NCBI GenBank assembly: GCA_024635875.1 | Contig: JAGXIC010000281.1 | Span: 1 to 34,289, forward strand | DNA length: 34,289 nt | Source of the DNA: Pricia sp. | GTDB lineage: Bacteria; Bacteroidota; Bacteroidia; Flavobacteriales; Flavobacteriaceae | Direction: 5' to 3' | Part shown: in pieces, positions 30,109 through 32,332 of the stretch | Position numbering within the stretch: the first letter of the stretch is position 1 | How the letters are laid out: every line of letters starts with the position of its first letter | Notes under the pieces: generated by a model | What the model was told of the DNA's origin: nothing | The model's database searches: none | Seen by the model: the letters and a program-made list of their open reading frames with translations, nothing else | Position numbers and translations under genes: made by a program

Positions 30109-30134
30109 TTTTCAAACCGAATTTAACTTCGATA

Positions 30135-30142
30135 CAAAGATA
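30135..30142 (-). promoter_or_regulatory. Candidate -7 element for sdaA
   Basis: The minus strand reads TATCTTTG, an exact TAnnTTTG match, 27 bases before the ATG at 30108. No -33 TTG is found at the usual spacing. Confidence 0.4.
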
Positions 30143-30173
30143 GTCAATAGTGGGTTTGAAAAATGGAAAGTAC

Positions 30174-30321
30174 AAGTTCAAGTGTCAAGCACAAGTTCAA
30201 AAAAAAGGTTAGGAGTTCAGTATTTCCTTTTATTCTGTCTGACTTCTTTTTTTCAAATATCGAACAGGGCATTCCCTAACTGATTGGGTTGAACTTGACA
30301 TTTTAACTTGCACTTGAACTT
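30174..30321. repeat. 148-bp element with nested inverted repeats
   Basis: Outer arms AAGTTCAAGTG (30174-30184) and CACTTGAACTT (30311-30321) are perfect complements. Inner arms CAAGTTCAA (30192-30200) and TTGAACTTG (30289-30297) are also complementary. The interior of about 90 bp is AT-rich with no reading frame. It lies between the divergent sdaA and dnaK genes and ends six bases before the TGACA inverted repeat of the dnaK control region. Confidence 0.7.
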
Positions 30322-30326
30322 AAAAA

Positions 30327-30339
30327 TGACATCCTGTCA
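30327..30339. promoter_or_regulatory. Inverted repeat TGACA-N3-TGTCA upstream of dnaK
   Basis: Perfect 5-bp arms with a 3-bp centre, 77 bp before the dnaK ATG and 12 bp before the -24 element of the predicted promoter. Its centre lies near -44 relative to the expected start. It is therefore a probable binding site for a dimeric regulator. It is not the CIRCE element of HrcA. Confidence 0.5.
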
Positions 30340-30350
30340 GTTTTATTCCC

Positions 30351-30367
30351 TTGGCATATTGTTTGCC
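30351..30367 (+). promoter_or_regulatory. Sigma-54 type (-24/-12) promoter of dnaK
   Basis: TTGGCATATTGTTTGCC contains TGGCA and TTGC. The GG (30353-30354) and GC (30365-30366) are separated by exactly ten bases, the rigid spacing of sigma-54 promoters (consensus TGGCAC-N5-TTGC). The ATG of dnaK is 49 bp further on. A TAnnnTTTG reading for the primary sigma factor also exists but has one base too many. Confidence 0.55.
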
Positions 30368-30415
30368 TTTTAGTAATCGATTTCAGAAATTGGACACTAA
30401 TTTAATATATATAGC

Positions 30416-32332
30416 ATGAGCAAGATTATAGGAATTGATTTGGGTACGACCAACTCCTGCGTTTCCGTAATGGAAGGTAACGAGCCGGTAGTCATCCCGA
30501 ATGCCGAACGAAAGCGGACTACTCCGTCCGTCATTGCCTTTGTAGAAGGTGGTGAAATAAAAGTGGGTGATCCCGCGAAAAGACAGGCGGTAACGAATCC
30601 CGAAAAAACAATCTATTCGATTAAGCGTTTTATGGGGAACAAATATTCCGAGTCTAAAAAAGAAGCGGAACGCGTACCTTATAAAGTGGTTAAAGGTGAT
30701 AACGATACGCCACGGGTCGATATCGACGGACGTATGTATACGCCCCAAGAACTTTCTGCCATGATTCTTCAGAAAATGAAGAAAACGGCCGAGGATTATT
30801 TGGGACAGGATGTGACCCGAGCAGTCATCACCGTTCCCGCATATTTTAACGATTCACAACGTCAGGCCACCAAAGAGGCCGGTGAAATTGCAGGATTGAC
30901 CGTGGAACGCATCATCAACGAACCTACGGCTGCATCATTGGCATATGGACTCGATAAAAAGGATGTCGATCAGAAAGTAGTCGTATTCGATTTTGGCGGT
31001 GGTACACATGATGTTTCCATTCTTGAATTGGGCGACGGTGTTTTTGAAGTACTTTCTACGGAAGGTGATACCCACCTGGGCGGCGATGATGTCGATCAGA
31101 AGGTAATCGATTGGTTGGCCGAGGAATTCAAAAAAGATGAAGATATCGATTTGCGCAAAGACGCCATGGCATTGCAACGTTTACGGGAAGCAGCGGAAAA
31201 AGCGAAGATAGAGTTATCGTCCTCCGCACAGACCGAAATCAACCTGCCTTACGTAACAGCGACCGCTTCAGGACCAAAACACTTGGTGCGCACATTGACT
31301 CGTTCAAAATTTGAGCAGTTGATAGAAGATTTGGTAAAACGTACCATCGATCCTTGCCAAAATGCGTTGAAAGCAGCGGGACTCTCAAAAAGCGATATCG
31401 ATCAGGTTATTTTGGTCGGTGGTTCCACGAGGATACCTGTCGTACAGGAAGCCGTCGAAAAGTTCTTCGGTAAAAAACCATCGAAAGGTGTGAATCCCGA
31501 TGAAGTAGTGGCCATTGGTGCCGCGATTCAGGGTGGTGTTTTGACAGGCGACGTGAAAGATGTGTTGCTGTTGGATGTTACACCATTATCCTTAGGTATC
31601 GAAACTATGGGAAGCGTAATGACCAAGTTAATCGAGGCCAATACCACGATTCCTACGAAGAAATCCCAGGTATTTTCCACTGCGGCAGATAATCAGCCTT
31701 CTGTTGAAATTCATGTGCTACAGGGAGAGCGACCCATGGCAACGGACAACAAAACGATAGGTCGCTTCCATTTAGATGGAATTCCTCCCGCGCAACGTGG
31801 TACGCCGCAGATTGAGGTGACTTTCGATATCGATGCGAACGGCATCATCAAAGTTTCAGCAACAGATAAGGCGACCAATAAGTCTCAGGACATTCGTATC
31901 GAAGCATCATCCGGATTGACCGAAGAGGAAATCAAGAAGATGAGGGCCGAAGCCGAAGCGAATGCCGAAACGGACAAACAAGCGAAGGAAACTGCCGATA
32001 AGCTAAATGAGGCCGATAGCATGATCTTCCAGACCGAGAAGCAATTGAAGGAATTTGGCGAGAAACTCTCCGATGACAAGAAAAAGCCGATCGAGGAAGC
32101 TTTGGAGGAATTGAAAAAAGCACACGTCAGTAAAGATTTGGCTTTAATTACGCCCGCTTTGGACAAAATTAACGAAGCTTGGAAAGTTGCTTCGGAAGAA
32201 ATGTACAAAGCCCAGGCCGATGCACAACAAGGGGGTGAACCTTCCGCTAATGGACAGGATACCGCCGATGCTAGCAAAAACGCCAAAGAAGGTGACAATG
32301 TAGAGGATGTTGACTTCGAAGAAGTTAAATAG
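30416..32332 (+). CDS. dnaK: Molecular chaperone DnaK (Hsp70)
   Basis: ATP-driven chaperone that folds and disaggregates proteins with DnaJ and GrpE. It has 638 aa, full length. The ATPase domain (1-380) shows [61 protein letters not shown] (H where most Hsp70 proteins have F) and [13 protein letters not shown]. The substrate domain includes [15 protein letters not shown] and the region around [17 protein letters not shown]. The acidic C-terminal tail ends [11 protein letters not shown], the EEVD-like bacterial end. dnaJ and grpE are not adjacent, so it is monocistronic and followed by three hairpins. Its control region carries a sigma-54-like promoter and an inverted repeat. Confidence 0.98.

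Follow-up and report, generated by a model that had tools for sequence, protein, structure and literature searches.

In a stretch of Pricia sp. DNA, the dnaK gene is preceded by a sigma-54 promoter core and, at a near-fixed distance upstream of that core, by a short palindrome, and this combination of operator and core is the signature of a Bacteroidota chaperone regulon that comprises dnaK, grpE-dnaJ, htpG, groESL, clpB and hsp20. The window, by which we mean the whole stretch of 34,289 nucleotides that was analyzed, corresponds to contig C107 in an assembly of 3.96 Mb that is about 80% complete. Based on sequence comparisons, we consider with moderate confidence that the regulon, including dnaK, is probably driven by sigma-54 RNA polymerase together with a helically phased, DNA-bound activator, most likely an AAA+ protein that is here designated A. 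Bacteroidota are major gut and marine bacteria, and the way in which they switch on their chaperone genes is poorly known.

Operator and promoter core at the window dnaK

The elements upstream of dnaK are arranged as follows:

30327-30339, no strand assigned: operator TGACA-TCC-TGTCA (TGACATCCTGTCA), centred at −45 from the predicted start
30327-30331 and 30335-30339: operator half-sites TGACA and TGTCA, separated by TCC; two TGNCA elements, 8 bp apart
30340-30351, no strand assigned: 12-bp spacer (N12) between the operator and TGGCA
30352-30366, plus strand: sigma-54 core TGGCA-N6-TTGC (−24/−12), with TGGCA at 30352-30356 and TTGC at 30363-30366
30378, plus strand: predicted transcription start, inferred from the geometry with the C of GC set as −12
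30416-32332, plus strand: dnaK, an open reading frame of 638 codons with its ATG at 30416

The sequence TTGGCATATTGTTTGC (30351-30366) lies upstream of dnaK, and ten bases separate GG (30353-30354) from GC (30365-30366), which is the sigma-54 distance and agrees with what a preliminary description of this DNA had reported. The same description had placed a TGACA/TGTCA inverted repeat 12 bp upstream of the −24 element, exactly where we find it (30327-30339, followed by N12); its centre had been put near −44, which is approximately right, the geometry giving −45. The −12 element of the window carries the textbook GC and is in this respect an exception among its relatives, in which this element reads TTGnC; among 63 aligned sites, only about 2% have a base other than A or T at n. 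CIRCE, which had been described as absent, was indeed not found in the window with up to three mismatches allowed. Likewise, the region 30110-30415 has no TAnnTTTG box, the element read by the primary sigma factor in Bacteroidota; its two boxes with one mismatch have no spaced TTG.

Each of the single parts, the palindrome alone or the core alone, is weak evidence. With up to one mismatch, TGACANNNTGTCA was observed twice in the window against 0.86 expected, and TTGGC-N7-TTGC 15 times against 9.1 expected, a number reached in 4 of 100 shuffles. In the 3.96-Mb assembly, TGACANNNTGTCA alone is found at two places, the one not at dnaK lying within an open reading frame or at its start, and the composite TGACANNNTGTCA-N6..20-TTGGC-N7-TTGC has a single match, with none in the reversed control. 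The combination of operator and core is far beyond chance and the observation is real: TGNCA-N3-TGNCA-N8..16-TGG-N8-TTG was present in 67 of 70 dnaK upstream sequences, as opposed to none of 14,000 shuffled sequences, and in 56 of the 67 matching sequences of this first set the TGACA/TGTCA palindrome is perfect. The view that the arrangement is accidental and that the primary sigma factor serves dnaK can appeal to the fact that neither part is rare by itself in the window, but it has hardly any probability, being excluded by the conservation at dnaK and the regulon matches described below and by the absence of a TAnnTTTG box from 30110-30415.

Two further features of this locus are recorded here. 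An imperfect inverted repeat with 33-nt arms (30168-30200 and 30289-30321; 76% complementarity, arms 88 nt apart) takes up much of the intergenic region between the sdaA-like gene and dnaK. Furthermore, the N-terminus of the window DnaK (30416-30540) differs where all other pattern-matched copies have NAEGKRTTPS; the N-terminal R occurs only in the four copies of the window locus and represents either a real change or an assembly error.

Conservation in the family and extent of the regulon

DnaK matches were obtained in 118 of 120 family genomes, with identities of 77-95% outside the Pricia genome itself, and 116 of the 118 upstream sequences were read, those of G083 (where the match begins at residue 71) and G089 (where it lies at the start of a contig) being dropped. 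When scored as TGGCA-N6-TTG or, failing that, as TGGC-N7-YTG, the sigma-54 core was present in all 116. The DNA-binding domain of RpoN was found in 120 of 120 family genomes (in the Pricia genome at G000:C96:13551-14030), and together with the mapped transcription starts in the available part of a study on Flavobacterium psychrophilum (PMC9723704) these counts uphold the sigma-54 reading that had been proposed for dnaK. The combined motif, too, recurs in close relatives: TGNCA-N3-TGNCA lies 11-13 bp before the core in 104 of the 116 dnaK upstream sequences, the spacing between operator and TGGCA being 12 bp in 97 of these, 13 bp in six and 11 bp in one. In ten others the palindrome is located farther from the core, and two (G035 and G094) have no intact palindrome. 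Counted individually, half-sites peak at 12 bp (98 cases) and 20 bp (104 cases) from TGGCA over a background of 0.5 per position, and the half-site at 20 bp is retained in 7 of the 12 non-canonical promoters.

The pattern TGNCA-N3-TGNCA-N8..15-TGGCA-N6-TTG, searched in 16 family genomes, gave 31 matches and none in the reversed control. Fourteen of these belong to dnaK, 16 to grpE and one to htpG; 30 were read and their genes recognised by sequence, while the remaining one was assigned to dnaK of G061 by its place. As a spacing control, lengthening the spacer between TGGCA and TTG from 6 to 7 abolished all matches (0 of 16 genomes). Within the family as a whole, the composite is present in 117 of 120 genomes, with one reversed-control match. 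In a sample of the phylum, counted by pattern, it was found in 75 of 395 genomes, with reversed-control matches in 7 genomes. The composite was present in 40 of 41 genomes of the own family, in 27 of 49 genomes of other families of the class, and in 8 of 297 genomes outside the class, which is little above the control. Family f2 of the same order had the composite in none of 8 genomes, yet sigma-54 activators are present there.

The strict form TGACA-N3-TGTCA-N12-TGGCA-N6-TTG was scanned in 84,980 species, each represented by one genome, and at least 118 sites were obtained. Among the matches listed, 113 of 118 precede dnaK (68, including one weak and shortened match), grpE (20), htpG (13), groESL (7), clpB (4) or hsp20 (1), as assigned by tblastn of the 900 nt that follow each site, with two GrpE references. 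Of the remaining five, three are truncated where the locus ends, and two precede other open reading frames. A search upstream of further chaperone genes in related genomes had been suggested beforehand, and grpE, htpG, groESL, clpB and hsp20 were all matched. The genome-wide searches thus confirm the idea of a heat-shock regulon, whereas its supposed restriction to this group of bacteria was too narrow: the strict matches listed reach other orders of the Bacteroidota, including Bacteroidales, Cytophagales, Chitinophagales and Saprospirales. No organism outside the Bacteroidota is named among the matches listed, five less familiar genus names having been checked and one title reading just 'uncultured bacterium'.

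With regard to the two other open reading frames, one in a Taibaiella metagenome-assembled genome (L338:2050-2925) encodes a SMODS (CD-NTase) domain and starts 32 nt after a strict composite, which is perhaps a chance occurrence and perhaps marks a stress-linked defence gene. The second had no Pfam match.

Helical phase of displaced operators and the candidate activator

The ten dnaK promoters with a displaced palindrome carry it at 54, 44, 43, 43, 33, 53, 43, 53, 43 and 62 bp from TGGCA, that is 42, 32, 31, 31, 21, 41, 31, 41, 31 and 50 bp beyond the usual 12 bp; a chance palindrome is expected in 0.001 of these 100-bp stretches. These displacements are phased (Rayleigh test, n = 10, p approximately 3.5e-5 at 10.5 bp per turn; p between 7e-6 and 3e-4 across five periods from 10.0 to 11.0), although in G016, with its palindrome at 62 bp, the phase is off by about 2.5 bp. 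In a DnaK tree of 51 rows the displaced label changes 9 times, at least 6 of these changes being forced, and five of the ten displaced cases lie in one clade. When this clade is represented by a single value, p ranges from 0.0006 to 0.0046 according to which member is chosen, and without the clade it is 0.0027 (10.5 bp). Because the displacements are nearly whole turns, the operator would seem to work on one helical face only, as a DNA-bound activator would.

A related arrangement is seen at groES, for which 22 loci were retrieved, 19 of them with the gene inside the sequence taken. In 17 of these 19 promoters TGGCA has a half-site 11-12 bp away. Eleven of the 19 carry a second palindrome 32-34 bp from TGGCA, and in one more it lies at 43 bp. 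The groES promoters share ancestry and were left out of the Rayleigh test. At several loci (L199:6668-6830 and others) the distal groES palindrome, which is TGACA-AGC-TGGCA in several cases, overlaps a hairpin after the preceding SecG-like gene.

Protein A consists of a Sigma54_activat AAA+ domain and a C-terminal Fis-type HTH_8, the latter present in the five full-length copies scanned, and it has no receiver; a long, variable and acidic linker precedes the HTH. It was detected at more than 440 bits in 116 of 120 genomes, including every genome that is at least 90% complete. It was not found in G051, G062, G065 and G083 (84-88% complete), where composite sites are present. The Pricia copy is truncated, its open frame running for 306 codons before the contig ends. 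At five loci, with gene names assigned by eye, the A gene has miaB on one side and groES-groEL on the other; two or three small genes, one of them SecG-like, also lie in this interval. Among 55 copies, several of them from one genome, 50 share an identical HTH helix LGISERTLYRKIKQ, and of the remaining five, two are truncated; the loop reads GAFTGA in 45 and GSFTGA in 10.

We propose that sigma-54 RNA polymerase would transcribe dnaK from the core at 30352-30366, and that TGACA-TCC-TGTCA (30327-30339) would serve as the dock for an activator bound on a given helix face relative to the polymerase. That a protein binds the palindrome and activates from it is a reading of the conservation and the phasing; this protein would most likely be A, encoded between miaB and groESL. 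Since A has no receiver, its signal may come from a partner protein, as in the case of PspF, or from the amount of free chaperone. What speaks against the proposal is that other activators with an HTH exist in the Pricia genome, that G051, G062, G065 and G083 keep composite sites although A was not found in them, and that family f2 has sigma-54 activators and no composite in 8 genomes. The two dnaK upstream sequences with no intact palindrome, the out-of-phase site of G016, the clade shared by five of the ten displaced cases, and the TTGnC of relatives in place of TTGC also count against it.

The preliminary description had left open whether the close repeat marks a repressor or an unusual activator. 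A perfect inverted repeat close to a promoter would suit the operator of a heat-labile repressor that obstructs sigma-54 polymerase in an HrcA-like way, and HrcA/CIRCE provides the precedent. However, CIRCE is absent from the window, and a steric block is unlikely because ten promoters keep the palindrome at 33-62 bp from TGGCA, mostly in phase. This phased displacement favours a DNA-bound activator over a blocking repressor, which makes the latter improbable, so that of the two suggestions the activator is the favoured one. A repressor operator, chance, CIRCE and a primary-sigma promoter were all rejected as explanations on the basis of the displaced sites, the conservation and the scans.

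A further view is that a non-AAA+ protein, a co-activator or an architectural factor, occupies the palindrome while the ATPase is supplied from solution, the mode in which FlgR and CtcC are said to act, by a second, conserved protein, here designated B, which consists of a receiver and an AAA+ domain. We regard this as unlikely, though it has several points in its favour. No HTH_8 was found in the copies of B tested, and a close, near-fixed site is more like that of an activator working by contact than like a distant enhancer. B is also encoded downstream of dnaJ in all six loci read far enough (L200, L202, L203, L207, L208 and L209; for example L200:9555-10718, L202:3079-4245 and L207:8152-9315), but four of these six had been chosen for having B near a grpE site. 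In G016 it lies beside dnaK, and in G119 and G094 it occurs with the same ABC genes and no dnaJ. Against this view, 9 of 14 copies of B have GAFTSA or GSFTSA in place of the GAFTGA loop, and G035, G058 and G081 (91%, 80% and 66% complete, respectively) have A and no full-length B. It would also be conceivable, though very improbable in our view, that the palindrome is bound not by A but by a response-regulator activator with an HTH, as the Pricia genome encodes three such sigma-54 activators (of the types of L032, L034 and L035) besides A. This is countered by twelve small genomes (G004, G020, G043, G046, G052, G055, G064, G067, G092, G095, G099 and G119; 83-100% complete) that have just two full-length activators, namely A, identified by place, and one of B-like length, which was sequence-checked in four and had no HTH_8. 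All twelve nonetheless keep composite sites. It is also countered by G233, from another family, in which A is the sole activator at E ≤ 1e-40 as far as the activator count goes. Taken together, these findings make A the best candidate for a protein on the palindrome.

We are evenly divided over a broader form of the proposal, in which sigma-54 and A, acting on TGNCA-N3-TGNCA one or a few turns from −24, would constitute an old and dedicated heat-shock circuit of the Bacteroidota that differs from those of sigma-32 and HrcA. The activator gene lies beside groESL, so in such a circuit the chaperones could feed back on A. If true, sigma-54 would here serve a general stress response, from an enhancer that is phase-locked and lies unusually close.

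Relation to known systems

A link between sigma-54 and flavobacterial chaperone genes is already published (PMC9723704; PMC12316311). In F. psychrophilum, the −24/−12 motif SM4 is located at mapped starts of dnaK, groESL, grpE-dnaJ, htpG, clpB and lon; the motif is the one described here, and the accessible part of that paper gives no operator, spacing rule or activator, noting three PF00158 proteins and leaving the activators unassigned (PMC9723704). The inducing conditions reported in that part are blood agar, osmotic pressure, plasma and freshwater; heat is not among them (PMC9723704). Sigma-54 regulons predicted in silico for Bacteroidota are enriched in chaperone genes behind predicted promoters, again the same targets, with no operator or activator given for them in the accessible text (PMC12316311). 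The terms sigma54, groES, grpE and heat shock do not occur in the accessible part of PMC7366714. A literature search of titles and abstract openings yielded no match for this operator, its phasing or the activator assignment. What appears to be new, therefore, is the operator with its near-fixed, phase-locked arrangement, the association of this site with chaperone genes across the Bacteroidota, and the candidate activator. These findings supply a precisely defined cis-element, a definition of the regulon, a rule for the geometry and a single candidate for the activator, and the natural displacements provide a data set on the closeness and phase-locking of a sigma-54 enhancer.

Compared with control by HrcA/CIRCE and sigma-32, the target genes are the same, but here the window has no CIRCE and the promoter has a −24/−12 core. 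The sites of NorR, GTCA-N3-TGAC, are short palindromes bound by the Fis-type HTH of a sigma-54 activator. The operator described here is likewise a short palindrome, but it has the form TGNCA-N3-TGNCA and usually occurs as one site at a fixed short distance. PspF is composed of an AAA+ domain and an HTH without a receiver or other N-terminal regulatory domain, and is controlled by a partner protein. The candidate A resembles PspF-type activators in having AAA+ and HTH domains and no receiver, and differs from PspF in its acidic linker, in the position of its gene by groESL, and in a putative site that is centred near −45 rather than farther upstream.
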